Shown here piece by piece: positions 8,212-47,506 of a stretch of DNA of 64,000 nt. A model generated the notes under the pieces. It ran no database searches. It was not told the origin of the DNA and saw only the letters and a list, made by a program, of their open reading frames with translations. Source of the stretch: Marinobacter sp. X15-166B (lineage in GTDB: Bacteria; Pseudomonadota; Gammaproteobacteria; Pseudomonadales; Oleiphilaceae). The translations under genes were made by a program, and so were the position numbers. How positions within the stretch are numbered: the first letter of the stretch is position 1; each line of letters opens with the position of its first letter. Location of the stretch: the NCBI RefSeq assembly GCF_001752365.1, contig NZ_MEIY01000001.1, positions 1,623,044-1,687,043 on the forward strand. Direction: 5' to 3'.

Positions 8212-8213
8212 TC

Positions 8214-16228: not shown

Positions 16229-16242
16229 CATCGTTCTCCTGT

Positions 16243-17458: not shown

Positions 17459-17497
17459 TGAAAAATAAATGACCGGGGCGGCTCAGCCGTTCCCCGG
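17459..17497 (-). terminator. Intrinsic terminator downstream of paaK
   Basis: On the minus strand CCGGGG, inner CGGC/GCCG pairing and CCCCGG form a stem (17473-17497), followed by a T-rich run (ATTTATTTTT). It separates the paaFGHIJK transcript from paaABCDEZ. Confidence 0.7.
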
Positions 17498-17506
17498 CCT
17501 CGGACC

Positions 17507-18814: not shown

Positions 18815-18901
18815 GGTTGTTCCTGTGTTGTTCTTGTTGACCCGGCGTGTCACCGTGCCAGTTTCGGTTGTTACTCGGGCCCGGGGCTGGCCGGGCCGGG
18901 T

Positions 18902-22112: not shown

Positions 22113-22115
22113 GGT

Positions 22116-22907
22116 TCAGTTCCCCTTGAATTCGGGGGCGCGCTTTTCCATAAAGGCGGCTACGCCTTCGCGGTAGTCGTTGGTGCGCCCGGCCAGGCGC
22201 TGCAGGTCGCGCTCGACCAGCGCCTGTTCCTCGAAACTGTTGGTGGCGCTGGCGTGCAGCGCGCGCTTGATCAGCGCCAGGCCTTTGGTGGGCTGGCTGG
22301 CAAAATGGCGGGCCAGCTTCATGGCCTCGGCCTGCAGGTCGTCGTCGTCCACGCACTGCCAGATCATGCCCCACTGTTCCGCTTGTTCGGCGCTCAGTTT
22401 GTCGCCCAGCATCGCCAGACCTTTGGCGCGGGCCATGCCGACCAGCCGTGGCAAGGTCCAGGTGCCGCCGGAATCAGGAATCAGGCCGATTTTGCAAAAC
22501 GCCTGAATAAAGCTGGCGGAGCGGGCCGCCAGGGTGATGTCGCAGGCCAGCGCAATGTTGGCACCAGCCCCGGCGGCGACGCCGTTGACCGCACAGACAA
22601 CCGGCATGGGCAAATCCCGCAGGGATTGCAGCAGCGGGTTGTAGTATTTTTCAATGGACAACCCCAAATCGGGTGCAGCTTCACCGGGTTTGACGCTGCG
22701 ATCCGACAAGTCCTGACCGGCACAGAATCCACGTCCGTTACCGGTCAATAACAGAACCCGCACACTGGCGTCGTTGCGAATGGTTTTCAGCGCCGCCCGC
22801 ATCTGTTCATGCATGTCAACATTAAAACTGTTGAGGCTCTGGGGGCGGTTCAGGGTCACTTTGGCAATGCCCTGATCGATATCGAGAAGCACGCTCTGCT
22901 CGGTCAT
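22116..22907 (-). CDS. paaG: PaaG: 1,2-epoxyphenylacetyl-CoA isomerase
   Basis: 263 residues from MTEQSVLLDIDQGIAKVTLN. Crotonase fold with NGVAAGAGANIALACDITL (oxyanion-hole region) and ICKIG-like CKIGLIPDSGGTWTLPRLV. PaaG converts the ring epoxide to oxepin-CoA. It lacks one of the Glu residues typical of hydratases, as PaaG does. It follows paaF by 69 bases. Confidence 0.94.
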   Translation of the reverse strand: MTEQSVLLDIDQGIAKVTLNRPQSLNSFNVDMHEQMRAALKTIRNDASVRVLLLTGNGRGFCAGQDLSDRSVKPGEAAPDLGLSIEKYYNPLLQSLRDLPMPVVCAVNGVAAGAGANIALACDITLAARSASFIQAFCKIGLIPDSGGTWTLPRLVGMARAKGLAMLGDKLSAEQAEQWGMIWQCVDDDDLQAEAMKLARHFASQPTKGLALIKRALHASATNSFEEQALVERDLQRLAGRTNDYREGVAAFMEKRAPEFKGN

Positions 22908-22976
22908 GAAAAATCCTTGTGGTAGCCATGGCACCCGCCGCCATGCGGCGGATGGAAGTGGTGAATGAACCCGGGG

Positions 22977-23750
22977 TCAACGCCCGGAGAACGCTGGCTT
23001 GCGCTTGTTCTGAAAAGCCTCGAGGCCTTCGCGGCGATCGTCGGTCGCGGCCAGAATGGTAAAGGCGTGGCGCTCGAACCGCAGGCCGGCCGCCAGATCC
23101 ATATCCTCCGCACGCTGGACCGCCTCGCGAGCCAGTTGCACCGCAATGGGTCCCTTGGAGGCGATGGTGCGGCCGATCGCGACGGCGCGTTCAACGGTCA
23201 GTTCCGGCTGGCACACCTCACTCACCAGCCCCGCCTCCAGGGCCCGCTGGGCACTGATGGGTTCGCCGGTCAGCACCATCTGCATGGCCAGAGACTGGCC
23301 GACGGCGCGCACCAGCCGCTGGGTGCCGCCGGCCCCGGGCATGATGCCCAGGTTGATTTCCGGCTGGCCAAAGCGGGCGTTGTGGCCCGCAATCCGGATG
23401 TCGCCGTGCATGGCCAGTTCGCAGCCACCGCCCAGACAGAAGCCGTTCACCGCAGTGATCAGGGGTTTGGTAAAACGTGCGATACGGGCCCAGTGCTGGA
23501 CACGGGGGTCGGTCAGCATGCCGACCGTGTCGCGGGCGGCCATCTCATTGATGTCGGCACCGGCAGCAAACGCCCGCTCGCTGCCGGTAATAACCACCGC
23601 ACGGGTGTCAGGGTCCGCTTCCGCGGCGTCCAGCGCCTCACTGAGGGTTTCAAGCAGGGCGGTGTTGAGGGCGTTCAAGGCTTCGGGGCGATTCAGTGTT
23701 AACAGGCGAACGCCCTGATCCGGCCCGTGAGAGAGCAGTATCTGTGGCAT
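22977..23750 (-). CDS. paaF: PaaF: 2,3-dehydroadipyl-CoA hydratase
   Basis: 257-residue crotonase family enoyl-CoA hydratase starting MPQILLSHGPDQG. NGFCLGGGCELAMHGDI and the QPEINLGIMPGAGGTQRL motif contain the oxyanion Gly and the two catalytic Glu residues of a hydratase. It hydrates 2,3-dehydroadipyl-CoA to 3-hydroxyadipyl-CoA. It opens the paaFGHIJK operon, facing paaY across a 327-base control region. Confidence 0.93.
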   Translation of the reverse strand: MPQILLSHGPDQGVRLLTLNRPEALNALNTALLETLSEALDAAEADPDTRAVVITGSERAFAAGADINEMAARDTVGMLTDPRVQHWARIARFTKPLITAVNGFCLGGGCELAMHGDIRIAGHNARFGQPEINLGIMPGAGGTQRLVRAVGQSLAMQMVLTGEPISAQRALEAGLVSEVCQPELTVERAVAIGRTIASKGPIAVQLAREAVQRAEDMDLAAGLRFERHAFTILAATDDRREGLEAFQNKRKPAFSGR

Positions 23751-23830
23751 AGTGTTTCCGGTCTGACCTTGTTGTTGGTTGTCGGTATGGATGCCTACCC
23801 GTTGAGTTCTAGAAGAGTATAGGTTTGAAT

Positions 23831-23870
23831 TGATACCGGTCAATAGCTCTAGGGGTGATTTTTTGTATCA
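23831..23870. promoter_or_regulatory. Candidate PaaX operator upstream of paaF
   Basis: TGATAC (23831-23836) and GTATCA (23865-23870), perfect reverse complements 28 bases apart, matching the spacing upstream of paaA and livK. Confidence 0.5.
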
Positions 23871-24077: not shown

Positions 24078-24668
24078 ATGCCCTGTTACCAGATTGACGG
24101 TGTCACGCCCGTGGTGCACCCGTCTGCTTATGTACACCCGAGTGCCGTGCTGATTGGCGATGTGCATATCGGACCGGATTGTTATGTCGGCCCTTGTGCG
24201 TCGCTGCGCGGCGACTTTGGTCGCATCGTGATGGAGCAGGGCGCCAACCTGCAAGACACCTGCGTGGTGCATGCGTTTCCCGGCCGGGATGCGGTAATCC
24301 ACCGCAATGGCCACATAGGGCATGGCGCGGTCTTGCACGGCTGCGTGATCGAAGAAGATGCCATGGTGGGCATGAACGCCGTGGTGATGGACGAAGCCGT
24401 GATTGCGGCACGCTCCATTGTGGGAGCCGCGGCCTTTGTGAAAGCCGGCTTCAGTTGTGAACCGGCTTCACTGATCGTGGGCTCGCCCGCCAAGGTGGTG
24501 CGTCAACTGAGTGAGAAAGAGGTGGGCTGGAAGCTGCGCGGCACCCAGGAATACCAGGCACTGACCCGGCGGTCGCTTGCAACCATGCAGGAATGCACAC
24601 CGCTGACCGAAATCGATGCGGAGCGGCCGCAATTGCAGGTGGGTGAGCACGATCTGAAAGACCAGTGA
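24078..24668 (+). CDS. paaY: PaaY: hexapeptide-repeat thioesterase
   Basis: 196-residue left-handed beta-helix protein with hexapeptide repeats (HPSAVLIGDVHIGPDCYVGP, GHIGHGAVLHGCVIEEDAMV). Histidines typical of gamma-carbonic-anhydrase-like zinc sites are present. PaaY is a thioesterase that hydrolyses ring-hydroxylated phenylacetyl-CoA dead-end products. AGGAGAGG precedes the ATG. It is divergent from paaF and probably under the same regulator. Confidence 0.92.
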   Translation: MPCYQIDGVTPVVHPSAYVHPSAVLIGDVHIGPDCYVGPCASLRGDFGRIVMEQGANLQDTCVVHAFPGRDAVIHRNGHIGHGAVLHGCVIEEDAMVGMNAVVMDEAVIAARSIVGAAAFVKAGFSCEPASLIVGSPAKVVRQLSEKEVGWKLRGTQEYQALTRRSLATMQECTPLTEIDAERPQLQVGEHDLKDQ

Positions 24669-30834: not shown

Positions 30835-31311
30835 TCAGCGAACACCCACCGGGATGGTGTGGGTGTTCTTGATCTCCCGCAGGGCGAAGTTGGAATTTAC
30901 CTGGGCGATGCCCTGCAAAGTGAAGATTTTCTCATTCAGAAAACGGTCGTAGCTGGCCATATCCGGGACGATCACCCGCATCACAAAATCCGCATCACCG
31001 GTCACCGCAAAACATTGCAGCACCTCCGGGTAGCTGCTGACTTGCTGCTCGATTTCGGCGGTGCTGTCGATGGTGTGTCGTTGCAATGACAAATTGACGA
31101 GCACGCACAACCCCTGACCGATGCGTTCAGGGGCCACCTGTGCGCTGTAACCGGTGATGACACCGGCTTCCTCGAGTGTCCTCACCCGGCGCCAGCACGC
31201 GGCCGGGGACAACCCCACCTGTTCCGCCAGATGCTGGTTGCTGATCCGCCCGTCCTGTTGCAGCAAGTCCAGAATGCGCTGGTCGAGTTTGTCCAGTTCC
31301 ACCTGTTTCAT
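30835..31311 (-). CDS. Lrp/AsnC family transcriptional regulator
   Basis: 158 residues from MKQVELDKLDQRILDLLQQD. The N-terminal helix-turn-helix (NQHLAEQVGLSPAACWRRVR) and C-terminal RAM ligand-binding domain (about 70-150) give the normal family length. Upstream ATGs would add about 16 to 32 unusual residues with no better ribosome-binding site, so the start is a length-based choice. It is divergent from the indolepyruvate oxidoreductase/aminotransferase/symporter operon and probably senses an aromatic amino acid. Confidence 0.88.
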   Translation of the reverse strand: MKQVELDKLDQRILDLLQQDGRISNQHLAEQVGLSPAACWRRVRTLEEAGVITGYSAQVAPERIGQGLCVLVNLSLQRHTIDSTAEIEQQVSSYPEVLQCFAVTGDADFVMRVIVPDMASYDRFLNEKIFTLQGIAQVNSNFALREIKNTHTIPVGVR

Positions 31312-31470
31312 TTGGTAACACTCGCAGTTTTTCGAAGGATCTTTCGTTTGCATGATCATTATAGGGATATCTTGTGTGAAAGCTAAAGGTGTTGGGTCAA
31401 TAAGCAAGCACCTTTTGCGAACTTCCCTCTAGACTTCAAGTCATAAAATCGACAATAAGAGGAGGGCGTT

Positions 31471-34400
31471 ATGTCCACCGACATCTCTCAAACCGCTGCC
31501 GGCGAAGGCAGCACCGCCGGGGAAGAACTGTCTCCGGGCAGCACTCCGCAGCTCGATGAGTACCAGCTTGAAGACCGCTATCTGCGTAAATCCGGGCGGG
31601 TCTTTCTCACCGGTACGCAGGCGTTGGTGCGTATTCCCCTGATGCAGGCCGAGCTGGACCGCCAGGCAGGGCTGAATACCGCCGGCCTGGTCAGCGGCTA
31701 CCGGGGATCCCCTCTGGGTGCCTACGATCTGGCCCTGTGGCAGGCAAAGCCTCTGTTGAATGAGGCCCGGGTCGATTTTGTCCCGGCCATCAACGAGGAT
31801 CTGGCCGCGACCATCATTCTGGGTACCCAGCAAGTGGAAACCGATGCCGACCGCGAGGTGGACGGAGTCTTCGGACTCTGGTACGGCAAAGGCCCCGGGG
31901 TGGATCGCGCCGGCGACGCCCTGAAACACGGCACCACCTACGGCAGTTCGCCCCACGGAGGGGTGCTGGTGGTGGCCGGGGATGACCACGGGTGCGTGTC
32001 CTCCTCCATGCCCCACCAGTCCGACGTGGCGTTCATGAGCTTCTTCATGCCCACCATCAATCCGGCTAATGTGGCCGAATACCTGGAGTTTGGACTCTGG
32101 GGGTATGCCCTGTCCCGTTACAGCGGCTGCTGGGTGGGTTTCAAGGCGGTGTCCGAAACCGTGGAAAGCGCAGCGTCAGTGGAGCTGCCGCCCTTGCCGG
32201 AATTTGTCACCCCGGATGATTTCACCCCGCCGGAGGACGGCCTGCACTACCGCTGGCCCGATCTGCCGGGACCGCAGCTGGAAACCCGCATCGAACACAA
32301 GCTGGCAGCGGTGCAGGCCTTTGCCCGCGCCAACCCAATCGACCGGTGTCTGTTCAATAACGCCGAGGCGCGGTTTGGCATTGTGACCACCGGGAAAGGC
32401 CATCTGGATCTGCTGGAAGCACTTGATCTGCTGGGCATTGATGAAGCCCGCATGCACCAGCTGGGACTGGACATTTACAAGGTGGGGCTGGTCTGGCCCC
32501 TGGAGCGGCGCGGCATTCTCGACTTTGTGCACCACAAGGAAGAGGTGCTGGTGGTGGAAGAAAAGCGCGGCATTATCGAGAGCCAGATCAAGGAGGCCAT
32601 GTCCGAGCCGGATCATCCCGGGGAGGTGTTGATCACCGGGAAACAGGATGAACTGGGGCGCCCGCTGATTCCCTACGTGGGCGAGCTGAGTCCCAAACTG
32701 GTTGCCGGCTTTCTGGCCGACCGGCTGGGCCGCTTTTTCGGGATTGATTTCAGTGACCAGCTGGCGGTCATGAACTGCATGAGCAACGCGGAGGATCCAG
32801 GCGGGGTCCGGCGCCTGCCGTACTTCTGCTCCGGCTGCCCCCATAATATTTCCACCAAGGTCCCGGAAGGCAGTAAGGCGCTGGCCGGGATCGGTTGCCA
32901 CTTTATGGCCTCGTGGATGGGCCGTAATACGGAATCGCTGATCCAGATGGGCGGCGAGGGGGTCAACTGGATCGGCAAGAGCCGTTACCTCGGTAACCCC
33001 CATGTGTTCCAGAATCTGGGCGAGGGCACCTATTTTCATTCCGGCTCCATGGCCATACGCCAGGCGGTCGCCGCGGGCATCAACATCACCTACAAAATCC
33101 TGTTCAATGATGCGGTGGCCATGACCGGTGGGCAGCCCGTAGACGGCCAGATTACCGTGCCAATGATTGCCCGCCAGGTCGCCGCCGAAGGCGCACGACG
33201 GGTGGTGGTGCTCAGTGATGAGCCGGACAAGTACCACGGCCATCTGCACCAGTTCCCCGACGACGTCAGCTTCCATGACCGCAGCGAGCTGGATCAGGTG
33301 CAGCGGGAGTTGCGCGACATTCCCGGGTGTACCGTGCTGATCTACGACCAGACCTGTGCCGCTGAAAAGCGCCGCCGCCGCAAGCGCAACCAGTACCCGG
33401 ATCCCGCCAGACGGGCGTTTATCAATCATCACGTGTGCGAAGGTTGCGGCGACTGTTCGGTGCAGTCGAACTGCCTGAGTGTGGTGCCGCGGCACACCGA
33501 ACTGGGACGCAAACGCAAGATCGACCAGTCGTCCTGTAACAAGGATTTCTCCTGCGTGAATGGCTTTTGCCCCAGTTTTGTCACTATCGAGGGTGGCCAG
33601 CTGCGCAAATCCCGCGGTCTGGACACCGGCTCGGTGCTGACCAGCAAACTGGCCGATCTGCCGGAGCCGGTGTTGCCGAAGCTGAGCGGCTCCTACGATT
33701 TGCTGGTGGGCGGTGTCGGTGGTACCGGGGTCGTCACCGTGGGCCAGCTGATTACCATGGCCGCCCACCTGGAAGGCAAGGGCACCTCGGTGCTGGATTT
33801 CACCGGATTCGCCCAGAAAGGCGGTACGGTGCTCAGTTATGTGCGCATGGCGCCGACGCCGGACAAATTGCATCAGGTGCGCATCAGCGCCGGTGAAGCC
33901 GATGCGGTGATTGCCTGCGATCTGGTGGTGGCCTCGTCCCAGAAAGCGCTGAGCGTGTTGCGGCCCGACCGCACCCGCGTGGTGGCCAACGAAGCCGAGT
34001 TACCCACCGCCGATTATGTGCTCTACCGGGATGCGGACATGCAGGCCGACAAACGTCTGGAGCTGATCCGTAACGCCGTCGGCGAGGACAACTTCGCGCA
34101 ACTGGATGCCAACGGCATCGCCGAACAGCTGATGGGCGACACGGTGTTTTCCAACGTGATGATGCTCGGCTTTGCCTGGCAGCGGGGGCTGTTGCCGCTG
34201 TCCCATGCGGCGTTGATGAAGGCCATTGAACTCAACGGCGTGGCGGTCGAGCGCAACAAGGAAGTGTTCGGCTGGGGCCGGCTGGCGGCGGTCGATGTGA
34301 GCGTGATTACCGAGCTGTTGCGTCCCGCTGAAAACGCCAGTCAGGAGACGCAAACGGAGCCGGATCTGGACGAGTTGATCCAGAGCCGTTACCGGAATCT

Positions 34401-35052
34401 GGTGAACTATCAGAACCGCCGCTGGGCCGATCGTTACACCACGCTGGTGCAGCAGGTGCGTGAGGCGGAAGAAAAGCTGGGCGAGACCAACCACTTGCTG
34501 ACCCGCGCGGTGGCCTGGCAGTTGTACCGGTTTATGGCCTTCAAGGATGAATACGAGGTGGCCCGGTTGTTCACGGAGACCGATTTCCTGCAGGAGGTGA
34601 ACCAGACCTTTGAGGGCGACTTCAAGATTCACTTCCACCTGGCACCGCCGATCATGAACCGGGGTACCGACGCCCAAGGCCGGCCCCGCAAGCGTGAGTT
34701 TGGTCCCTGGATGTTCCGCGCGTTCAAACTGCTGGCCAGATTGCGGGTGCTGCGGGGCACGGTGCTGGATCCGTTCCGGTACACCGCCGACCGCAAGATG
34801 GATCGGGCGCAATTGCACGATTACCAGCAATTGGTGGCGCGGATCGTCCGCGAGCTGGATGCGCGCAACTACGACACTTTCTTGCAGCTGGCGGAACTGC
34901 CAGCGGAAATACGCGGCTATGGCCCGGTGCGGGAGCAGTCCGCCCAGGCGATCGAGGCCAAGCAGCAGCAGCTGATCAAAGCTCTGGATACCGGTCGCCC
35001 CACGTTGATTCGCACGGCTCAGGCCGATACCAAGGAGACAGATCATGTTTGA
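31471..35052 (+). CDS. Fused indolepyruvate:ferredoxin oxidoreductase
   Basis: 1193 residues. It combines the alpha (TPP-dependent; pyrimidine and PP-binding parts, including GIGCHFMASWMGRN and EGTYFHSGSMAIRQA) and gamma (C-terminal, LVGGVGGTGVVTVGQLI) subunits of 2-oxoacid oxidoreductases, as in aerobic proteobacteria. A cysteine cluster at Cys656, Cys659, Cys662 and Cys668, with nearby Cys453/Cys456, fits Fe-S ligands. It decarboxylates indolepyruvate, phenylpyruvate or hydroxyphenylpyruvate to the aryl-acetyl-CoA. Cotranscribed with an aminotransferase whose ATG overlaps its last codons, it should feed phenylacetyl-CoA into the paa pathway without PaaK. AGAGGAGG precedes the ATG. Confidence 0.92.
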   Translation: MSTDISQTAAGEGSTAGEELSPGSTPQLDEYQLEDRYLRKSGRVFLTGTQALVRIPLMQAELDRQAGLNTAGLVSGYRGSPLGAYDLALWQAKPLLNEARVDFVPAINEDLAATIILGTQQVETDADREVDGVFGLWYGKGPGVDRAGDALKHGTTYGSSPHGGVLVVAGDDHGCVSSSMPHQSDVAFMSFFMPTINPANVAEYLEFGLWGYALSRYSGCWVGFKAVSETVESAASVELPPLPEFVTPDDFTPPEDGLHYRWPDLPGPQLETRIEHKLAAVQAFARANPIDRCLFNNAEARFGIVTTGKGHLDLLEALDLLGIDEARMHQLGLDIYKVGLVWPLERRGILDFVHHKEEVLVVEEKRGIIESQIKEAMSEPDHPGEVLITGKQDELGRPLIPYVGELSPKLVAGFLADRLGRFFGIDFSDQLAVMNCMSNAEDPGGVRRLPYFCSGCPHNISTKVPEGSKALAGIGCHFMASWMGRNTESLIQMGGEGVNWIGKSRYLGNPHVFQNLGEGTYFHSGSMAIRQAVAAGINITYKILFNDAVAMTGGQPVDGQITVPMIARQVAAEGARRVVVLSDEPDKYHGHLHQFPDDVSFHDRSELDQVQRELRDIPGCTVLIYDQTCAAEKRRRRKRNQYPDPARRAFINHHVCEGCGDCSVQSNCLSVVPRHTELGRKRKIDQSSCNKDFSCVNGFCPSFVTIEGGQLRKSRGLDTGSVLTSKLADLPEPVLPKLSGSYDLLVGGVGGTGVVTVGQLITMAAHLEGKGTSVLDFTGFAQKGGTVLSYVRMAPTPDKLHQVRISAGEADAVIACDLVVASSQKALSVLRPDRTRVVANEAELPTADYVLYRDADMQADKRLELIRNAVGEDNFAQLDANGIAEQLMGDTVFSNVMMLGFAWQRGLLPLSHAALMKAIELNGVAVERNKEVFGWGRLAAVDVSVITELLRPAENASQETQTEPDLDELIQSRYRNLVNYQNRRWADRYTTLVQQVREAEEKLGETNHLLTRAVAWQLYRFMAFKDEYEVARLFTETDFLQEVNQTFEGDFKIHFHLAPPIMNRGTDAQGRPRKREFGPWMFRAFKLLARLRVLRGTVLDPFRYTADRKMDRAQLHDYQQLVARIVRELDARNYDTFLQLAELPAEIRGYGPVREQSAQAIEAKQQQLIKALDTGRPTLIRTAQADTKETDHV

Positions 35053-36229
35053 GTCGCTCAAGCCCTTACCCCATGACCCGATCCTGCATTTGATGCAGGC
35101 CTACCGGGACGACCCGCGACCCGAAAAGGTGGATCTGGGTGTGGGCGTCTATAAGGACGATGCCGGCAACACACCCATCATGGCGGCGGTGCATGAAGCC
35201 GAGCGGCGTCTGCTGGCGGCAGAAACCACCAAGAGCTATGTGGGACCGGCGGGATCGGCGGCGTTTAACGAGGCGATGGCGCGCCTGATTCTCGGGGAAC
35301 GCAACCCGTTGCTGGCAGAAGGCCGCACCTCGGTGATCCAGACCCCGGGTGGTTGCGGGGCGCTGCGCATGGCGGCGGAGTTCTTCCGGTTGTGCCGGGC
35401 GGACACCCGGGTGTGGGTCAGTACGCCAACCTGGGCCAACCATATACCCTTGCTGAGCGGAGCGGGACTGCAATTGCAGGAGTACCCCTATCTCGACCGC
35501 GACACCATGACCGTGGATTTCGACGCCATGCTCGGGGCACTGGAGGGCGCTCGGCAGGGCGACGTGGTGTTGCTTCACGGCTGTTGCCACAACCCCTCCG
35601 GGGCCGATCTGACGTTTGCCCAGTGGCAGGCCCTGACCGGGCTGATTCAGCGCAAGGGTTTGCTGCCTTTTGTGGATATCGCCTATCAGGGGCTGGGGGA
35701 CGGTCTGGAAGAGGATGCGGCCGGACTGCGTTACCTGGCCGGTCAGGTGCCGGAGATGGTCATCGCCGCCTCTTGTTCCAAAAATTTTGGCCTGTACCGG
35801 GAGCGAACCGGCGCACTGATGCTGATCTCGGCCAGCGGAACCATTAACACCGCGGCCACCAGCCAGCTGCTGGGGGTGGTCCGTGGCCATTATTCCATGC
35901 CTCCGGCCCATGGAGGCGCCATTGTCGAAACCATCCTGACGGACGACGCCTTGCGCGCCAGCTGGCAAAGCGAACTGAGCGGCATGTGCGCGCGAATTCT
36001 CGGGCTGCGGCACGCCTTTGCCGATGCTCTGGCGCCGGTGGGTGATTTCGGTTTTATTGCCCGCCAGCGGGGCATGTTCTCGTTTCTGGGGATAACCCCC
36101 GAGCAGGTTCGGCGGCTGCGGGAAGAACATGGCATCTATATGCTCGACAGCAGCCGGGTCAACGTGGCCGGCCTGAACGAGCGGGTGTTACCCCAAGTCG
36201 CCAATGCGATAGGCGGTGTAATGAAGTAG
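35045..36229 (+). CDS. Aromatic/aspartate-family aminotransferase
   Basis: 394-residue class I PLP aminotransferase of the AspC/TyrB subgroup. Schiff-base Lys246 is in SCSKNFGLYRERTG, and the C-terminal substrate-binding Arg region is SRVNVAGL. It overlaps the oxidoreductase by 8 bases. It probably transaminates phenylalanine, tyrosine or tryptophan to the 2-oxoacid used by the oxidoreductase. An aspartate preference is possible from sequence alone; the operon favours aromatic substrates. Confidence 0.9.
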   Translation: MFESLKPLPHDPILHLMQAYRDDPRPEKVDLGVGVYKDDAGNTPIMAAVHEAERRLLAAETTKSYVGPAGSAAFNEAMARLILGERNPLLAEGRTSVIQTPGGCGALRMAAEFFRLCRADTRVWVSTPTWANHIPLLSGAGLQLQEYPYLDRDTMTVDFDAMLGALEGARQGDVVLLHGCCHNPSGADLTFAQWQALTGLIQRKGLLPFVDIAYQGLGDGLEEDAAGLRYLAGQVPEMVIAASCSKNFGLYRERTGALMLISASGTINTAATSQLLGVVRGHYSMPPAHGGAIVETILTDDALRASWQSELSGMCARILGLRHAFADALAPVGDFGFIARQRGMFSFLGITPEQVRRLREEHGIYMLDSSRVNVAGLNERVLPQVANAIGGVMK

Positions 36230-36288
36230 GGCCTCGACGGGCTTCCTGACGAAGACGATCCAACAAAAACAATGATTCGGAGTACACA

Positions 36289-37671
36289 ATGAGTGAGGTT
36301 GTTTATCCCCACCAGCAGGCGAACAGTCTGTGGAGTTCCAGAATGGCGTTTATTCTGGCGGCGGCCGGCTCGGCCGTCGGGCTGGGTAATATCTGGAAGT
36401 TTCCCTACATCACCGGGGAAAATGGCGGCGGAGCCTTTGTGCTGATCTATCTCGCCTTTATCTTTCTTATCGGCGTGCCGGTACTGATTGCGGAAATCAT
36501 GATCGGACGGCGCGGCGGGCAGAGCCCGGTGGCCACCATGCGCACCCTCACTGAGACCGAAAACACCGCCAGGGGTTGGCGCATCATCGGCTGGAACGGG
36601 GTGGTGGCGTCCTTCCTGGTGCTGTCCTTCTATGCAGTGATTGGCGGCTGGGCGCTGGTGTACATCGGCAAAACGGCCATTGGTTTGTTTGCCGGTGCGG
36701 ATGCGGAAGCTGTCGGTGGTCAGTTCAACGACCTGTTGGCCAGCCCCTGGGAACTGCTGCTGTGGCACTCGGTGTTCATGGCGATCGTGGTGTTCATCGT
36801 TGCCCGGGGGGTGCGATCCGGCCTGGAAAAAGCAGTCAATATGCTGATGCCCTTGCTGTTTGTGCTGTTGGTGGTGATGGTGATCTATGCCATGAACAGC
36901 GGCAGCTTCGGCCGTGCGGTGCACTTCATGTTCTCGCCGGATTTCAGCAAGCTGACCACCGAAGGCGTGTTGATTGCGCTTGGCCATGCCGCCTTTACCC
37001 TGAGCATCGGTATCGGGGTGCTGATGGCCTACGGCTCCTATCTGCCCAAGAGCATCAACATTGCCCGAACCGCCATGACCATTGCGGTGGTGGATACCAG
37101 CGTGGCCCTGCTGGCCGGGCTGGCGATTTTTCCGCTGGTGTTCGCTAACGGTCTGGAAGCGGGTGCCGGTCCCGGGCTGATCTTCGTTACCTTGCCGCTG
37201 GCCTTCGGGCAGATGGGCGCGGGTACCCTGTTCGGCACGGTCTTCTTTGCCCTGTTGCTGGTGGCCGCCATCACCTCGGCCATCTCCATGCTGGAGCCGG
37301 TGGTGGAATGGCTGGAAGAACGCAAAGGTGCCAGCCGCGTCAGAAGTGCCATCGGGGGCGGGTTGGCGGTGTGGTTCGTCGGCATTGGTACGGTGCTGTC
37401 GTTCAACCTGTGGAGCGATGTGCATCCGTTGGGGCTCATCGGCTTCTTCGAGGGCAGAACGGTGTTCGGCCTGCTCGACTTCCTGGTCACTAACCTCATG
37501 ATGCCACTGGGCGGGTTGGCAATTGCGCTGTTTGCCGGCTGGGCCATCAGGCGGGAAGGGCTGGCGCAGGACATCGGTCTCTCCGGCGCCGCCTACCAGG
37601 CGTTCATGGTGGTGCTGAAGTACGTGACCCCGGCGGGAATCGCCATCGTGTTCCTTTACAACCTGGTGTAA
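36289..37671 (+). CDS. Neurotransmitter:sodium symporter family amino-acid transporter
   Basis: 460 residues, the size of bacterial NSS proteins such as MhsT/TnaT. The first helix carries the family motif AAAGSAVGLGNIWKFPY (Na+ and substrate site), and about 11 to 12 hydrophobic segments follow. It is the third gene of the aromatic-acid operon, so Na+-coupled uptake of an aromatic or branched-chain amino acid is likely. CGGAGTACAC lies before the ATG. Confidence 0.9.
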   Translation: MSEVVYPHQQANSLWSSRMAFILAAAGSAVGLGNIWKFPYITGENGGGAFVLIYLAFIFLIGVPVLIAEIMIGRRGGQSPVATMRTLTETENTARGWRIIGWNGVVASFLVLSFYAVIGGWALVYIGKTAIGLFAGADAEAVGGQFNDLLASPWELLLWHSVFMAIVVFIVARGVRSGLEKAVNMLMPLLFVLLVVMVIYAMNSGSFGRAVHFMFSPDFSKLTTEGVLIALGHAAFTLSIGIGVLMAYGSYLPKSINIARTAMTIAVVDTSVALLAGLAIFPLVFANGLEAGAGPGLIFVTLPLAFGQMGAGTLFGTVFFALLLVAAITSAISMLEPVVEWLEERKGASRVRSAIGGGLAVWFVGIGTVLSFNLWSDVHPLGLIGFFEGRTVFGLLDFLVTNLMMPLGGLAIALFAGWAIRREGLAQDIGLSGAAYQAFMVVLKYVTPAGIAIVFLYNLV

Positions 37672-39588: not shown

Positions 39589-40257
39589 TCATGACGGTGG
39601 CTCCGTATCCTTGCCAATGTCTGCGCGGAAAGTCTTCCTGTTGGTGCCGTCATCAAGGTGGGCGACCAGGGTGCCGGCGCCCGGAAACAACACCTTCAGC
39701 GGCAGTGCCAGCAAATTGTCACCGGGCTTCAGGCTGACCTTCCAGCTGATCCTCTGGCGACCGGGGAACGGCGCCAGCTCCATATTGGGCGGCAACTCGA
39801 GGGTGAGCGTGACGTTGTCGACCGCCTGTTGTGAATTGAACGCCAGCCGGACAGTCTGCGATTGCTCCTGAACGCCGCTGAATTCGTTGGTGGGTGGCGA
39901 TGCTGTGGTGGCCAGCGGGGTGTCGGGGGTACCCGGAGCAAAGAGTTGGCCACCAATAAACATGCCAAGCACCAGAGCCGCAGCAATGGCAGCTCCCCAG
40001 CCGGGCCTCAGCCAGCGCCGCTCTCCGCCGGGGCGGTCGCTGCTGGTGGCTGCCCGCAACACACGCGCTTCAAAATCGGCGGCCGGTTCCGGCACCCTCA
40101 TGGCTTGCAGCCCCTGGTGCACCGACCGTGCCGCCGACCACGCCGGTGCGCAATTGCCGCACACCCGGGCGTGCTGGCGCAGCGCCAGGATAACCTCGTC
40201 GGGCCAGCCGCCCGGAGGCATGGCATCAAGTTTGGTTGTAAATTGGTCGCAGTTCAT
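39589..40257 (-). CDS. Anti-sigma factor, ZAS type
   Basis: 222 residues from MNCDQFTTKLDAMPPGG. The zinc-binding anti-sigma signature H-x3-C-x2-C (QHARVCGNC) is near residues 28-35. One transmembrane segment follows (AAIAAALVLGMFIGGQLF, about residue 90), then a periplasmic part of about 110 residues rich in beta-strand. It should hold the adjacent ECF sigma factor at the membrane until a signal is received. It starts 10 bases after the sigma gene. Confidence 0.82.
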   Translation of the reverse strand: MNCDQFTTKLDAMPPGGWPDEVILALRQHARVCGNCAPAWSAARSVHQGLQAMRVPEPAADFEARVLRAATSSDRPGGERRWLRPGWGAAIAAALVLGMFIGGQLFAPGTPDTPLATTASPPTNEFSGVQEQSQTVRLAFNSQQAVDNVTLTLELPPNMELAPFPGRQRISWKVSLKPGDNLLALPLKVLFPGAGTLVAHLDDGTNRKTFRADIGKDTEPPS

Positions 40258-40267
40258 TCCGTCCACC

Positions 40268-40855
40268 TTACTGAACCTCACGTTGCTGGTCCGCAAAAGG
40301 TTCCAGTTCTTCCTGCAATTTTATACGTAACGCAGCGCGTGTGCGGTGCAGGCGTGATTTTACCGTACCGAGGGCGACGTCCAGAACCGCCGCAATGTCT
40401 TCCTGACGCCAGTCGTCCACGTCGTGCAGCAGCAGCAAGGCGCGTTGGTCGGGGGCCAGTTGCGCCAGTGCCTGCTGCAGCGACCGGTCGCGGAACTCCT
40501 GATGGAGCCCCTCCAGGGGATCTTCATCCGCACCGCTGAGGGAGTCCAGGAACGGGCTGGAGCTGTTTGTATCGTCCAGGGCGCTCGCTACCACTTCTCT
40601 GCCGGTGGGGCGCTTGCGCAGCGAATCCACGAACTGCCGGTACAACACCCGGTTAAGCCAGGGGCGCAACTGCGCGACCGTCTCCAGTTCGTCGAGCTTC
40701 GGATAGAGCTTGACCACCACGTCCTGTACAAGGTCCTCAGCATCGTGCTGGCGCCCGGTTAAGCGGAACGCAAGCCCGTACATGGTCTTCAGGTGCGGTT
40801 GGATAAGACGCTCAAAACGCTTTGATTTGGACTGGCGGAATGGAAACAGGGCCAA
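40268..40855 (-). CDS. ECF-type RNA polymerase sigma factor
   Basis: 195-residue sigma factor with region 2 (AFRLTGRQHDAEDLVQDVVV, about 28-48; core RpoE-like) and region 4 (WRQEDIAAVLDVALGTVKSR, DNA-binding helix-turn-helix). There is no region 1.1 or 3. It is the promoter-proximal gene of an operon with an anti-sigma factor, a small exported protein and a TPR/barrel protein. Target promoters are not known; a GGAACC...CGT sequence upstream of the divergent lipase-type gene is one candidate. Confidence 0.9.
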   Translation of the reverse strand: MALFPFRQSKSKRFERLIQPHLKTMYGLAFRLTGRQHDAEDLVQDVVVKLYPKLDELETVAQLRPWLNRVLYRQFVDSLRKRPTGREVVASALDDTNSSSPFLDSLSGADEDPLEGLHQEFRDRSLQQALAQLAPDQRALLLLHDVDDWRQEDIAAVLDVALGTVKSRLHRTRAALRIKLQEELEPFADQQREVQ

Positions 40856-41135: not shown

Positions 41136-44123
41136 ATGTTGATCCGTAATGCCTTGCTTGCCGCCCTTTCGGCTGCTTCATTCGGGCTCACTGGCTGTCT
41201 GGACAGCGGTGGCCAGACCAATCACAACGCCGACCCTGACTACATCATCAAGGGCGGCCCAAGGATCGACCGGGGAACCCACCCGTTGTTTGATCCCCTG
41301 GCCACTGAATTCACCATTCCCAGCGATGCCCTGTTTTACTTGAGCGACCTGAACGACGGCACCATGTTAAACGGCACCGACCCCGACAACCCGGTCACCG
41401 ACGGCATTGGTTACCTGGACGGGGCGTCGGTACTGGCCCCCATTGACGTCAAAATCAGCGCCAGTCTCCATAGTGAACAGATTCTGGATGCACGTGAATT
41501 TGTCCTCGCCGAAGACGAGAGCACCACCATTCCCAACCCGAATCAGAACGTGTTTCTGGTGCCGGTTGATTATGCCGGCGGTGATCCGTTGAATGCGCTG
41601 GATGCGGAAGCACCGGGGTTGATGACCGCGGCCCGTTACCGGGAGGCGCTGCGACTGCAAGCGGATGGCGATGACGCCGGAGCAGAGGCAATCTTTGCAG
41701 AGTTGCGCGCCGATAAGGTCCGGGTGGAGCTGCTGGATATCGACGGCGGCCAGAACAATCTGGTCCGGATTCTTCCGCTGACACCTCTCGCGGCCAAAAC
41801 CCAGTACATGCTGGTACTGACCAACGACATCAAGGACGCCGACGGCCATCCGCTGGTGGGGTCGCCCACCTTCCAGAGTGTCGCCAACCCCGACCGGGTG
41901 CTGTCGAACGCGGGGTTTCAGCCGTTCCGGGATGCCATGTTGCCGGCCCGCAAACTCGCGGCAGACTACTTTGAGTTCAAACGGGATTACCCGGAATCGG
42001 ACACTTTCGCGGCGACCTTTGCCGACATCACCTACGCCACCATGATCACCACCACGGCAGTGGATGATGTGCTCCTGGCAAACGCGGCACCCATTGTCTA
42101 TTACCGGGACACGCTGACCCTTGCTCAGCGGCAGGAATCCCTCCGCAAGCTGGTGGCCGGGTTCTACAATTTGAGCGGCCAGACGCTGGCCGAGGGGACC
42201 GGCGAAGAGCAAGCCCTGAACGCGGCGCTCTATGCCACCCTGACCGACCCCACATTTCGTCTGTACGATGCCGAGCTGGCGGCCATTCTGGAGGCCGCTA
42301 ACGATGACGGCATCACAGTGGCTTACGGAGATGTGATTACAGACGCCGAAAGCGATCGCCGTCTGGCGCACGGCATTCAGGTCGCGGCCGCAGAGGCCAG
42401 CGACGCCGCCATGGAGATCGAAACAGCGGCGCAGAAACTGGCGACAGCGGCTGAAACCTTGGTGGATACGCCCAAAGCGCGCACTGTCAGCATTTTCAGT
42501 CAGCGTCCCGGCGGCGAAGTGAACCCGGCTCTTGAGCAGAACCCTACAGGGGTGCCAGGGGCGGAAATCAACATCCGCGTTTACGAAGGGGAGATTACCC
42601 TGCCGTACTTCCAGGCGGTAGCGGCGGCCGGTGACGGTTCGCAATTGAAAACCACCAGCTGGCAGCCTGCGGATTTTTCCGCCGACCCGGAACTGACCCC
42701 GGCGCCGTCTGACCGAATCAGCTATCGCTTTCCGTTCGCCGGCAAAACAGCGGATACCGTTGTGCCCATCGTGGTTGCGGCCCCGCCAGCAACAGAGGCA
42801 CCCCCCCCAGGGGGCTACCCGGTCATCATCTACCAGCACGCGGTGACCCAGGACCGGTCGGCGATTCTGCCCATGGCCACGGCGGCGGGACTCACCTGTA
42901 TTGCCACCCGAGCCTCTGCGTCACCGGATGACTGTTTCGTTACCGTAGGCATCGACCAGCCGTTGCACGGTATTTTTGAAGAAGATGGCGGTGCCGTGGG
43001 TCTGAGTCCGATCTCAACCCAGGCGGGCGCGTCTGCGGAAGCCACCGAACGTCACTTCGGCTTCGCCGCTGACGCCGAGCTGAATGCGGTGGCCGCCGCC
43101 GGCTTGACAGATCCGGAATCCGGCAGTTTGTTCCTGAACTTCGCCAACTACGCCAACACCCGCGACAACATGCGGCAGAGTGCGCTGGATCTGCTCAACG
43201 TGAACGCCTCGTTGCGGGCAATCCAAACCGCGATAGGCGAGTGCTCAAGCTGCGCCAACACGGTATTGAGTCTCAATCTGGGCAAGGTGTACTTCATGAC
43301 GCACTCGCTCAGCGGGATGGGCGGCGTTGCGGTGCCGCACGTCACCAACGCGGCCATTGCGGCCGGCAACTCCGAACTCAACACCATCAACGCGTCGACT
43401 TTCTTCAACACGGGCGGCAATTTTTCCCGCTTGGTGGAGAACTCCCAGTCGGTGGCACCGCGACTACTGCCGGTTCTGGATGAGGCGTCCGACGGTCTCC
43501 TGGCGCAGGGGCGCACCGAATTGAACATCTACTTCAATGTGCTTCAGGCACAGCTGGATTCGGTAGACCCCACCGCCTATGCCCCCTTCTACAAGGGGCA
43601 GCCCGTGCTGCTGACCGAGATTGCCGGTGATCCGGAGGATGCCGACAAACCTACGGACAATACCGTTCCCAATGCGGCCGATGAGGCGGGTGCTCTAGGC
43701 CCGCTTGCGACCACCATTGCGGAAACCGGGTTTGTGATACGGGGTGAAAACATGCCCCTGGCCGGCACCGATCCGCTCGCTGCGGTCATGGGGGCGGCCG
43801 CCATACAGGCAGCTGCCGCTGACAATACCTTGCCGGTGATTACCCGCTACACCGAAGGGGCCCACGGCAACCCCATTTCCGCAGGCACCAAAAGCGCGGA
43901 AGCCTACTCTTCCAGTGCCGTATTCACCGAAATGACGGCGCAGATGCTGGAACTGTTCACCCAAGGGACAGTGTCGGTCGATAACGGCTGTGTGGTGCAG
44001 GGGGTTACCGGTACGGATTGTGACAATCCGGACAACAGCGACCCCGGCAGTGATCCTGATCCCGATGATGGCAATGGCGACGGCGACGGTGGCATTGCCA
44101 TACCCCCGATCCCGGGTCTGTAA
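41136..44123 (+). CDS. Large lipoprotein, VolA/Pla-1-like lipase family
   Basis: 995 residues. The lipobox LTGC gives Cys21 as the lipidated residue, so it should be membrane-anchored and possibly surface-exposed. The sequence resembles the bacterial virulence-factor lipase family (VolA/Pla-1/cef; N-terminal PF12262-like part). The candidate nucleophile is Ser724 in THSLSG, where Gly positions of the usual GxSxG are Thr and Ser; the following GMGG may compensate. A Gly/Asp/Pro-rich tail (DPDPDDGNGDGDGG) could bind Ca2+. A lysophospholipase or lipase role is likely but substrate is unknown. Confidence 0.75.
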   Translation: MLIRNALLAALSAASFGLTGCLDSGGQTNHNADPDYIIKGGPRIDRGTHPLFDPLATEFTIPSDALFYLSDLNDGTMLNGTDPDNPVTDGIGYLDGASVLAPIDVKISASLHSEQILDAREFVLAEDESTTIPNPNQNVFLVPVDYAGGDPLNALDAEAPGLMTAARYREALRLQADGDDAGAEAIFAELRADKVRVELLDIDGGQNNLVRILPLTPLAAKTQYMLVLTNDIKDADGHPLVGSPTFQSVANPDRVLSNAGFQPFRDAMLPARKLAADYFEFKRDYPESDTFAATFADITYATMITTTAVDDVLLANAAPIVYYRDTLTLAQRQESLRKLVAGFYNLSGQTLAEGTGEEQALNAALYATLTDPTFRLYDAELAAILEAANDDGITVAYGDVITDAESDRRLAHGIQVAAAEASDAAMEIETAAQKLATAAETLVDTPKARTVSIFSQRPGGEVNPALEQNPTGVPGAEINIRVYEGEITLPYFQAVAAAGDGSQLKTTSWQPADFSADPELTPAPSDRISYRFPFAGKTADTVVPIVVAAPPATEAPPPGGYPVIIYQHAVTQDRSAILPMATAAGLTCIATRASASPDDCFVTVGIDQPLHGIFEEDGGAVGLSPISTQAGASAEATERHFGFAADAELNAVAAAGLTDPESGSLFLNFANYANTRDNMRQSALDLLNVNASLRAIQTAIGECSSCANTVLSLNLGKVYFMTHSLSGMGGVAVPHVTNAAIAAGNSELNTINASTFFNTGGNFSRLVENSQSVAPRLLPVLDEASDGLLAQGRTELNIYFNVLQAQLDSVDPTAYAPFYKGQPVLLTEIAGDPEDADKPTDNTVPNAADEAGALGPLATTIAETGFVIRGENMPLAGTDPLAAVMGAAAIQAAAADNTLPVITRYTEGAHGNPISAGTKSAEAYSSSAVFTEMTAQMLELFTQGTVSVDNGCVVQGVTGTDCDNPDNSDPGSDPDPDDGNGDGDGGIAIPPIPGL

Positions 44124-44161
44124 GCAGCAGGCACATCTTCACTGACAACCATAACCATGGC

Positions 44162-44187
44162 ACCTGCCCTGTTCGTGCGGGGCAGGT
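44162..44187. other. Hairpin between lipase-type and DUF1302 genes
   Basis: ACCTGCCC (44162-44169) and GGGCAGGT (44180-44187) with a 10-base loop, 38 bases after the lipase stop and 32 bases before the DUF1302 start. No T-tract; possible processing or attenuation. Confidence 0.45.
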
Positions 44188-44219
44188 CATGCCACAAAAA
44201 ATGTGCGGAGTACCACGCA

Positions 44220-46115
44220 ATGACAACAGCAACATCCATTCTGGCCAGATCGGTCCGGCTGGCACTGGCGGCCCAGCTTGTGTGCTTGGCCCCGGCAGCG
44301 GTTGCCGTCGACTTCAATGTCTACGGCATTGATGCTTCGTTCAGCACCACGCTGACGGCCGGCACCGCCATCCGCCTGGAAGACCAGGACAAGGACCTGA
44401 TATCTCAGGGTAACCTGGGGCCGCAGTTTGCGTTCAGCAACACCGGGGCCTCTTCCAACAACTTTGACGATGGCAACCTGAACTTTGAAAAAGGCAAGCC
44501 CTACTCAACCATACTCCGCGGCCGCAGCGAGCTGTTTCTCGACTATGTGCCCGACAGCGATGTGCTGACCCGGGTGGGCGCGCTGGTTCGTGGCAGCTAC
44601 TGGTACGACTACGAACTCAAGAATAAGAAGCGGGCCACGGACCCTGTGGGCCAGCGCCGCGAGCTGAACGCGAAAGCAAAGGACAACGCCGCCGGGGCGG
44701 ATTTACTCGACGCCTACGTCTTTACCGACTGGTATGCGGGGGAGATACCGATTGCGGCACGCTACGGGCGTCAGGTGGTGAATTGGGGGGAGAGTACCTT
44801 CATTCTTGGCGGTATCAACGCCATCAACCCGATTGACGTGCCGGCATTCCGCGCCCCGGGGGCGGAGCTGAAGGACGTGCTCATGCCCATTGAGATGCTC
44901 TACACGTCTGTCGGCCTGACTGCAGACGTCACATTGGAGGCGTTTGTACAGACCAACTGGGAGCCGTTCCGCATCGACGATTGTGGCACGTTTTTCTCGA
45001 CCGCGGACGTGGCCGCGGACGGTTGTGGGCCGGTGCTGCTAGCCGGCCAGGTGCCGGATTCCCAAGCGTTGGACGAAGGTTTCGTGGCACCGCGGTTGGG
45101 TGATAAAGAGCCGGGGGACAAGGACCAGTTTGGCGTGGCGCTCCGCTGGTATGTGAACCCGCTGGAAGCGGAACTGGGCTTCTACTACACCCGTTACCAC
45201 AGCCGCTTGCCCTACATCAGCGGGGTGGTGAACAATCCGGCGTCGCCGGAAGGCACGCAGATGACCGACCCGACTGCGCCGGACAGCCGATTCCCGAGCT
45301 ATTTCATCGACTATCCCAAGGGCATTGACCTGTTCGGGGTGAGTTTTAACACCACCTTGCCGACCGGTACCTCACTGGGTGCGGAATACAGTTACCGGCC
45401 AAACATGCCGATCCAGTGGAACACCTTTGAGCTGATATACGGTGGCTTGCAACAGCGGGGACCGGATGGTCAGACCATCAGTAAACTGGAACAGCGTGAG
45501 CAGGCCAAAGGCGTCAACTACGCCGGCCAGGCGGTCGATGGCTACGATCGCTACGGGGTATCACAGGCCCAGGCGACGGTGATCCACTTTATAGAGCGCA
45601 CCATGGGCGCCGCCCGCTTCATTATCGTCGGTGAAATAGGGGCCACCTACGTCCACGATCTGCCCGGCTTGTCCGAGGCCCGTTACGGTCGCTCCGGCGC
45701 CTTCGGGGTGGGCCCGGTGCCTCTGGACGGTCCCAGTTTCTCCGGGGATTACTGCAGCGAGGGGGTCAGCGATGCGGACCCACGCCTGAACATCAACGCC
45801 AGCTACTGCACCAACGACGGCTTCACCACCTCGTTTTCCTGGGGTTACCGCACCCTGTTCGCCTGGGATTATCCGAATGCGGTGGCCGGTATCAACCTGA
45901 TGCCCAAAGTGTTTCTCTCTCACGATGTAAAAGGGTATGCGCCAGACCCCGGCGGTAACTTCAAGGAAGGCAACAAGTCCATAGGGCTTGGGCTGGATGC
46001 CAGCTACCAGAACGCCTATCAGGCGTCACTCAGTTACACCAATTACTTTGGTGGCGATTTCAATGAAATTAACGACCGTGACTTTATAGCCGCGTCAATT
46101 TCTTACGCTTTTTAA
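44220..46115 (+). CDS. DUF1302 family outer-membrane protein
   Basis: 631 residues from MTTATSILARSVRLALAAQL, a signal peptide ending near AVA. The mature part is beta-rich and typical of DUF1302 (SYWYDYELKN, RQVVNWGESTFILGGINAIN). The C-terminus ends in aromatic Phe (ISYAF), as in outer-membrane barrels. Partner of the downstream DUF1329 protein; such pairs occur in degraders of lipids, sterols and polymers. Substrate uptake is inferred, and no biochemical function is established by sequence alone. Confidence 0.85.
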   Translation: MTTATSILARSVRLALAAQLVCLAPAAVAVDFNVYGIDASFSTTLTAGTAIRLEDQDKDLISQGNLGPQFAFSNTGASSNNFDDGNLNFEKGKPYSTILRGRSELFLDYVPDSDVLTRVGALVRGSYWYDYELKNKKRATDPVGQRRELNAKAKDNAAGADLLDAYVFTDWYAGEIPIAARYGRQVVNWGESTFILGGINAINPIDVPAFRAPGAELKDVLMPIEMLYTSVGLTADVTLEAFVQTNWEPFRIDDCGTFFSTADVAADGCGPVLLAGQVPDSQALDEGFVAPRLGDKEPGDKDQFGVALRWYVNPLEAELGFYYTRYHSRLPYISGVVNNPASPEGTQMTDPTAPDSRFPSYFIDYPKGIDLFGVSFNTTLPTGTSLGAEYSYRPNMPIQWNTFELIYGGLQQRGPDGQTISKLEQREQAKGVNYAGQAVDGYDRYGVSQAQATVIHFIERTMGAARFIIVGEIGATYVHDLPGLSEARYGRSGAFGVGPVPLDGPSFSGDYCSEGVSDADPRLNINASYCTNDGFTTSFSWGYRTLFAWDYPNAVAGINLMPKVFLSHDVKGYAPDPGGNFKEGNKSIGLGLDASYQNAYQASLSYTNYFGGDFNEINDRDFIAASISYAF

Positions 46116-46144
46116 ACACTCGGGAACCGAAGGAGATTTGTCCC

Positions 46145-47506
46145 ATGAAAATGATGCGAACTTTGCTATGCAGTACGGTGGCCAGTGCCCTGCTGGCTGC
46201 CGGGCCGGCGGTTGCCGCGGTAGCGCCGACGGAAGCGGCCAAACTTGGCGACACCCTGACCCCGATGGGAGCGATTAAAGCGGGTAACGGGAAGGAGATC
46301 CCCGCCTGGACCGGTGGCCTGGTGACTCCGCCGGCGGGATTCAGGGGTGACGGCCGTTACGTGGATCCGTTTCCCGAAGATCAGGAGTTGTTCCGTATTG
46401 ATCAAAGCAACGTCGACCAGTACGCCGATCGCCTGACCCCGGGGCAGGTGGCGATGATCAACACCTACAGCACCTATTTTATCCCGGTGTATGAGACCCG
46501 GCGCTCGGCAACCTACCCCGAGTCGGTGCAGCAGAAGACCAGGGAAAATGCGACCGAGGTGACGCTGATCGACAGTGGCAACGGTCTGCAAAATTACCAG
46601 ACCGCCATACCGTTTCCGATTCCGCAAAATGGTCTGGAGGCAATATTCAACCACATCACCCGCTATCGGGGGGGCTCGGTCACCCGCAATGTGGCTCAGG
46701 TGACGCCCCAGCCGAACGGTGAATTCAGCCCGGTCAAGTTCACCGAGTCGTTCACCGAGCGGGTTGAATTGAGGGACTACAAGCCGTCGGAAGACGACAA
46801 CGTGATGTTCTACTTCAAGCAGGAGATCAACGCGCCCGCCCGTCTGGCGGGGAACGTCCTGCTGATTCATGAAACCATCAACCAGGTCAAGGAACCCAGG
46901 CGCGCCTGGCTGTACAACTCCGGCCAGCGCCGGGTGCGGCGCGCGCCGAACGTGGCCTACGATGGTCCGGGTACCGCCGCCGACGGCCAGCGCACGACCG
47001 ACAACCTGGATCTCTACAACGGTGCGCCGGACAAGTACAACTGGGAGCTGAAGGGCCGCAAGGAACTGTATATTCCCTACAACTCCTACCGGTTGGCCAG
47101 CGGCGACCTGCGTTACAGCGACATCATCAAACCTGGTCACATCGATCAAAGCCTGGCGCGTTATGAGCTGCACCGGGTCTGGCATGTGACCGCAACGCTG
47201 AAGGATGAGGAGCGGCATGTCTATCAGGTGCGCGACTTTTACATCGATGAGGACAGCTGGCAGATTGCCGTGGTTGATCATTACGACGGCCGCGGCAACC
47301 TGTGGCGGGTAGCCGAAGCCCACGCCATGCAGATTTACGACGCGAAGCTGCCGGCCTACGCGTTTGAAACCCTCTACGATCTGCTGTCCGGTCGCTACCT
47401 GGTGATGGGTATGACCAACGAAGAAAGCTCCCCGTACGTCTACGGGACCGAGCGTAATTCACGGGAATACACCCCCGCCGCGCTGCGGCGTGCCGGTGTC
47501 CGTTAA
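46145..47506 (+). CDS. DUF1329 family periplasmic/outer-membrane protein
   Basis: 453 residues with a signal peptide (MKMMRTLLCSTVASALLAAG). DUF1329 proteins resemble LolB/LolA-like lipid-binding folds and are almost always next to a DUF1302 gene, as here, 29 bases downstream. GAAGGAGA precedes the ATG. Probably carries a hydrophobic molecule between the lipoprotein/lipase and the porin-like protein (inference). Confidence 0.87.
   Translation: MKMMRTLLCSTVASALLAAGPAVAAVAPTEAAKLGDTLTPMGAIKAGNGKEIPAWTGGLVTPPAGFRGDGRYVDPFPEDQELFRIDQSNVDQYADRLTPGQVAMINTYSTYFIPVYETRRSATYPESVQQKTRENATEVTLIDSGNGLQNYQTAIPFPIPQNGLEAIFNHITRYRGGSVTRNVAQVTPQPNGEFSPVKFTESFTERVELRDYKPSEDDNVMFYFKQEINAPARLAGNVLLIHETINQVKEPRRAWLYNSGQRRVRRAPNVAYDGPGTAADGQRTTDNLDLYNGAPDKYNWELKGRKELYIPYNSYRLASGDLRYSDIIKPGHIDQSLARYELHRVWHVTATLKDEERHVYQVRDFYIDEDSWQIAVVDHYDGRGNLWRVAEAHAMQIYDAKLPAYAFETLYDLLSGRYLVMGMTNEESSPYVYGTERNSREYTPAALRRAGVR

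Follow-up and report, generated by a model that had tools for sequence, protein, structure and literature searches.

How phenylalanine carbon enters the paa pathway of Marinobacter sp. X15-166B is the question raised by a four-gene locus at 30835-37671 of a 64,000-nucleotide stretch of its genome (contig NZ_MEIY01000001.1, positions 1,623,044 to 1,687,043; hereafter the window). The locus encodes an Lrp/AsnC-family regulator, a fused indolepyruvate:ferredoxin oxidoreductase (IOR), an aromatic aminotransferase and a Na+ symporter. The original prediction from this DNA was that phenylalanine is transaminated to phenylpyruvate and then converted in one step to phenylacetyl-CoA, bypassing PaaK. 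This prediction is supported by the co-occurrence with PaaA of the IOR clade to which the window protein belongs (termed type A), by the proximity of paa genes and by the finding of no match to phenylalanine hydroxylase (PF00351) in the genome. We put the probability at about 85 % that the unit is a phenylalanine catabolic module giving phenylacetyl-CoA to the paa pathway, the enzyme activity being predicted from sequence.

All four genes were found where they had been predicted. The fused IOR (31471-35052, plus strand), a predicted phenylpyruvate:acceptor oxidoreductase forming phenylacetyl-CoA, has 1193 residues and matches NCBIfam PRK13030 (NF009589) over its full length (residues 24-1174) with 1717.6 bits against a cut-off of 816. 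It belongs to the single-chain family, with IOR_alpha (131-700) followed by IOR_beta (742-920) in one chain, each below its own equivalog cut-off, and is the sole IOR match in the 3.49-Mb genome. The open reading frame (ORF) of the aminotransferase (35045-36229, plus strand) begins eight bases before the end of the IOR ORF. Its product, predicted to convert phenylalanine to phenylpyruvate, is a member of the PRK09257 family (551.9 bits, cut-off 377), and no second match to it was found elsewhere in the genome at E 1e-3. The symporter gene (36289-37671, plus strand) follows after 59 bases and encodes an NSS family member (PF00209, 165.4 bits), a predicted importer of aromatic or hydrophobic amino acids. 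The regulator (30835-31407, minus strand) matches PF01037 with 78 bits and PF13404 with 68.2 bits, and its true start is probably codon 33, at 31311. The best matches among sequences in the PDB were 1ay4 ('aromatic amino acid aminotransferase', 428.8 bits) for the aminotransferase and 4us3 (333.1 bits, E 2.6e-98; runner-up 2e-39) for the symporter, which we take to be the enzyme from Paracoccus and the transporter MhsT, respectively; the substrates of the window proteins are predicted from family. Chance origin of these genes was ruled out, as they are long and encode full-length family members. The claim that they form one unit held for the co-directional IOR, aminotransferase and symporter genes and proved loose for the regulator, because the latter is divergent.

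In the proposed route the symporter would import phenylalanine, the aminotransferase would, judging by its family, yield phenylpyruvate, and the IOR would convert phenylpyruvate and CoA to phenylacetyl-CoA and CO2, passing two electrons to a ferredoxin-like acceptor in the manner of Phaeobacter Ior1. PaaABCDE and the remaining paa proteins would then degrade phenylacetyl-CoA, with PaaK kept for free phenylacetate. Since the IOR would deliver phenylacetyl-CoA directly, phenylalanine carbon would need neither PaaK nor its ATP.

The complete paa operons had been placed about 7 kb away, and the paa set was indeed recovered at 11427-23843 on the minus strand, leaving 7.6 kb between 23843 and 31471. 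It comprises paaF, G, H, I, a J-type thiolase, K, A, B, C, D, E and Z, identified by NCBIfam, sequence reading and Pfam with position: PaaZ, E, D, C, A, K, the 3-oxoadipyl-CoA thiolase, PaaI, H and G score above NCBIfam cut-offs, PaaB was identified by reading the sequence, and PaaF was assigned from family and place to an enoyl-CoA hydratase (PF00378, ECH_1) that holds its position. As the window encodes PaaK too, the IOR would be an additional entry to the pathway and not stand in for a missing one.

We defined type A as the clade of the window IOR in a FastTree tree with 52 of 114 rows and an IQ-TREE quick tree with 52 chosen rows. In both trees the clade includes IORs of Marinobacterium, Halomonadaceae, Leisingera, Ruegeria, Bradyrhizobium and Microvirga and leaves outside a second kind of fused IOR found in Marinobacter (type B); in the IQ-TREE tree a second roseobacter IOR and two IORs of family f187 also fall outside it. 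A profile of 28 type A rows splits type A from the others except for one truncated row: type A rows score at least 1914 bits save L113 (1776) and the truncated L121 (1629), and others at most 1601, the scored rows including the 28 training rows and omitting those of 1000 residues or fewer. Under the same length limit, 19 positions show the same residue in all or almost all (>97 %) of 100 type A rows, and in at most one of 21 other rows. The PRK13030 score was rejected as a type A marker; a non-A protein of genome G110, 50 % identical to the window IOR, outscores it on that model (1743.6 against 1717.6 bits), and the family is broader than type A.

The occurrence of PaaA with type A was counted at several levels of sampling. 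Among 25 Marinobacter genomes, the source genome counted in, 18 carry a type A IOR at least 80.6 % identical to that of the window; the same 18 hold PaaA above its cut-off and the other seven do not. In a phylum sample of 397 genomes PaaA was present in 29/29 genomes with type A, 42/119 with only other fused IORs and 12/249 with none, seven weak-match genomes being taken as without a full fused IOR. Fisher's test of type A against the others gave 1.3e-11, a value that ignores kinship, and the type A count stands at 25/25 once Marinobacter is removed. A hand count of a class sample of 370 genomes gave 5/5, 10/35 (only other full fused IORs) and 6/330, with matches below 1000 bits likewise not taken as full fused IORs, among them that of G205, which is in pieces; the two samples overlap, for example in the source genome and G442. 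In both, type A was called by score (at least 1750 bits) and not by tree, the lowest type A score in the phylum sample being 1849 and the next score 1661, and proteins at 1646-1661 bits were left unplaced. PaaA was also found in 49 of 50 genomes checked out of the 80 with named loci, and among 41 relatives of Leisingera, typed with the type A profile, in 20/21 with type A versus 4/20 without, the latter four being G107, G108 and G120, which have only another fused IOR, and G123, which has none.

Known IORs are reported, in the parts of the literature covered, to be active on phenyl-, hydroxyphenyl- and indolepyruvate, and neither the aminotransferase nor the symporter family is limited to phenylalanine. 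The window IOR might on these grounds be a general arylpyruvate oxidoreductase serving mainly tryptophan or tyrosine breakdown, through indoleacetyl-CoA or 4-hydroxyphenylacetyl-CoA, with the paa neighbourhood incidental. We regard this as unlikely, since PaaA, which acts on phenylacetyl-CoA, accompanies type A in 29/29 genomes and type A is recurrently close to paa.

A different division of labour is suggested by PaaK itself and by type B. Phenylalanine might pass mainly through a phenylpyruvate decarboxylase to phenylacetaldehyde, phenylacetate and PaaK, leaving the IOR a minor role or other 2-oxoacids, such as branched-chain ones. Type B is a fused IOR about 50 % identical, present in 5/7 of the same-genus genomes without PaaA and as a second copy in G012, making six loci. 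The next gene encodes 366 residues in 5/6 of them. Three of these genes were read; in L053, the one tested, it belongs to the Glu/Leu/Phe/Val dehydrogenase family, and an AzlC gene is also present. These neighbours hint at other substrates for fused IORs, though the best NCBIfam model for the dehydrogenase is tryptophan dehydrogenase ScyB, below its cut-off. Types A and B, however, are separate clades with different neighbours, and PaaA in the genus is tied to type A alone, which makes the decarboxylase route, for which no search of this genome was made, a distinctly improbable main path.

Supply of phenylacetyl-CoA by the type A IOR is in keeping with its genomic placement. In Marinobacter the unit occupies three sites (ARRANGEMENTS) around a constant liv-paa block: past paaY and ProVWX, as in the window; upstream of liv, in G001, G002 and G012; or between livF and paaZ, in G017, G007, G003 and G006 (L041, L042, L044 and L049). 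The IOR lies within 15 kb of PaaA in 9/18 type A genomes of the genus and within 21 kb in 8/29 of the phylum sample. A divergent Lrp homologue stands beside the IOR in all 18 same-genus type A loci, that of the window counted in, and the aminotransferase and symporter genes adjoin it in 15. Outside the genus, paaK and paaZ flank the Lrp-IOR pair in G643 and G645, while the pair is about 2.5 kb from paaZ in G274 and near paa at four loci of Microvirga. In G758 it comes after liv, a gene for an enoyl-CoA hydratase and one like paaH, close to paa. The IQ-TREE tree gave eight label changes, a figure that is not a count of gains, as loci whose paa genes were unseen in the fetched flank were counted as 'other'.

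Several observations weigh against the proposed module. The adjacent aminotransferase and symporter genes are missing from 3/18 same-genus loci, and 9/18 genomes as assembled do not have the IOR close to PaaA (separate contigs in eight, a distance of 1.14 Mb in G004). G040, a metagenome assembly with type A, has weak matches only and no PaaA above cut-off. A taxonomy paper on Marinobacter scores L-phenylalanine use in 13 columns, of which eight are negative, one is positive (M. algicola), one is mixed and three are undetermined (PMC4157798); in the part in view not all columns are named, and the scores are not matched to carriage of the unit. Growth on phenylalanine is thus doubtful for several strains of the genus. 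PaaA is moreover frequently present where type A is absent (54 of 83 genomes with PaaA in the phylum sample). The other fused IORs are likewise enriched for it (42/119 versus 12/249), so that part of the association may reflect general metabolic breadth, and all of our co-occurrence counts ignore shared ancestry. These last two points would fit a co-occurrence that only marks catabolically broad genomes of certain lineages, with no pathway link. The exact match within the genus (18/18 versus 0/7) and the proximity to paa at varied positions in several families leave that explanation very little room.

The one-step, PaaK-free formation of phenylacetyl-CoA on which the module depends is right as an idea and is not new, having already been reported for Phaeobacter Ior1. 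Berger et al. in 2012 reportedly found that a paaK double mutant still degraded phenylalanine and that an ior1 mutant did not grow on it; Ior1 is said to be a fused iorA-iorB protein with its regulator IorR adjacent. If so, the comparison of paaK and IOR mutants has in essence already been made in another organism. According to the review passages considered, tropodithietic acid is still formed via ior1 in Phaeobacter double mutants of paaK1 and paaK2, the conversion of phenylpyruvate to phenylacetyl-CoA by ior1 is backed by labelled phenylalanine (PMC5577590), and phenylalanine is converted without free phenylacetate (PMC7497051). Ior1/IorR, as portrayed in those parts, resembles the Marinobacter system in that an IOR acts on phenylpyruvate and feeds paa without PaaK, and differs, by a comparison with the description of Ior1 only, in that the window has genes for an aminotransferase and an NSS symporter downstream of the IOR. 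By tblastn, neither gene as found in the window was detected beside the type A IOR at nine Rhodobacterales loci (L062, L063, L065-L067, L069, L070, L072 and L084). Ior1, whose sequence is outside the trees, is not placeable in a clade, since two fused IORs are found in its relatives: the type A clade includes one IOR of Leisingera and Ruegeria, and the Leisingera relatives that have it hold a second one of another clade beside a regulator read as LysR-type. The identity of type A with Ior1 is in this light no more than likely. Our data suggest that the Phaeobacter result extends to gammaproteobacteria. On the evidence of comparative genomics, the window holds a well-supported example of an established type of pathway, in a host new to it and with a transaminase and a permease added beside the IOR.

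The anaerobic IorAB enzymes and the archaeal IORs consist of two subunits. IorAB of Aromatoleum carries out the same step from phenylpyruvate to phenylacetyl-CoA (PMC9765128) and further anaerobic enzymes have arylpyruvate activity (PMC13285125, PMC13290082), according to the portions of these articles considered; together with the archaeal IORs they share with the window protein the conversion of arylpyruvate to arylacetyl-CoA and differ in being anaerobic, whereas the window IOR is a single chain and its genome encodes the aerobic paa epoxidase. Among the papers listed by literature searches, none deals with this unit in Marinobacter; within the text examined, 'indolepyruvate' is absent from PMC9007349, 'ior1' from PMC4062626 and 'ferredoxin' from PMC13186573.

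On a wider view, which we favour only slightly over its denial, type A comprises the dedicated phenylacetyl-CoA-forming enzymes of aerobic phenylalanine breakdown in proteobacteria. They would form one clade with 19 near-fixed positions that goes with paa in all sampled type A genomes except one metagenome assembly and has been repeatedly re-linked to it, other fused-IOR clades would serve other amino acids, and the Marinobacter module would have gained its own transaminase and importer, bringing uptake to ring opening into one region. The name 'indolepyruvate ferredoxin oxidoreductase family protein' is given to many proteins and specifies no substrate; the type A clade with its tie to paa would allow one subset of them to be labelled as the enzyme that leads from phenylpyruvate into phenylacetyl-CoA. 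Such an entry would save the ATP that PaaK consumes, could account for growth-supporting or other use of phenylalanine where PaaK is lacking, and is relevant to precursor supply for tropone antibiotics.

The predicted structure of the IOR has the 2-oxoacid:ferredoxin oxidoreductase fold. An AlphaFold model (pLDDT 80.3, pTM 0.76) aligned with 6n2n_A over 326 residues (Z 29.8, root-mean-square deviation 3.2) and with the pyruvate:ferredoxin oxidoreductase (PFOR) 6cio_E over 517 (Z 28.0, deviation 3.9), and the top 18 Foldseek matches were all PFORs. The IOR sequence matched no solved structure at E 0.001, and a PDB search with the IOR profile returned a POR gamma chain as its sole match (E 2.4e-4). 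Across 32 aligned rows 11 cysteines (including C656, C659, C662 and C668), a GGEG motif (G494-G497) and N546 are invariant. We infer that these residues fit iron-sulfur clusters and thiamine pyrophosphate, which presumably makes them cofactor sites; the model is poor within the likely cofactor region, at residues 459-495.

Control of the unit probably lies with the divergent Lrp-type regulator, acting at conserved sites in the regulator-IOR intergenic region (31312-31470, no strand assigned). This gap of about 160 bases contains AT-rich repeats and a 15-base block (31404-31418) conserved across Marinobacter orthologues, and the alignment of these orthologues points to 31328-31347 and 31404-31418 as candidate operator or promoter blocks. 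The first block has one match in the window, at three mismatches, and the second one match, which is exact, with about two expected by chance alone at three mismatches. A shared-site regulon joining the unit and paa was rejected for the window, as each block has its single match (up to three mismatches) beside the IOR and neither has one near paa.

Fused IORs outside type A showed further associations. In G678, G739 and G741 of family f187 the distance between a non-A IOR and PaaA is about 8 kb. At L197 and L198 (G741 and G739) an Lrp gene accompanies this non-A fused IOR, also some 8 kb from paa, which may be an independent recruitment to the role of type A. Taken with the PaaA enrichment of other fused IORs, these loci indicate that the paa link is strictest in type A and is not confined to it. 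All six type B loci (L052, L053, L055-L058) have an NSS symporter, 61-62 % identical, beside the IOR. The second fused IOR clade of Leisingera relatives and other alphaproteobacteria (L176-L181) has a LysR-type-like regulator and housekeeping-like genes (purL) as neighbours. Two IOR records are interrupted: around codon 372 of the match, the Marinobacter type A IOR at L003 (G019) contains a TAG in frame, from a broken gene or an assembly error, and the IOR in the Halomonas sp. PA16-9 record (L064) is broken into three ORFs by frameshifts or sequencing errors. The stop at L158 lies at its end, and L003 is the sole locus with a verified internal stop.

Between the paa genes and the unit lie paaY (24078-24668, plus strand; TIGR02287 318.5 bits, slightly under the cut-off of 319.6) and rhodanese-like, YedE-like and ProVWX genes. 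On the other side, a Liv-type ABC transporter (6098-11357, plus strand) adjoins paaZ in the window; it is kept next to paa or ior in relatives and stays with paa in other Marinobacter (L041, L042, L044). LivF-like genes are near the type A IOR in several alphaproteobacteria, and Liv-type loci were noted at L185-L187, L196, L097, L122 and L127. The transporter may serve to import phenylacetate or aromatic amino acids. Beyond the unit, a Sigma-70-like factor gene adjoins an anti-sigma-like gene (under cut-off) at 39589-40855, both on the minus strand, and genes for a VolA/Pla-1-like lipase (under cut-off), a DUF1302 protein and a DUF1329 protein follow in succession at 41136-47506.

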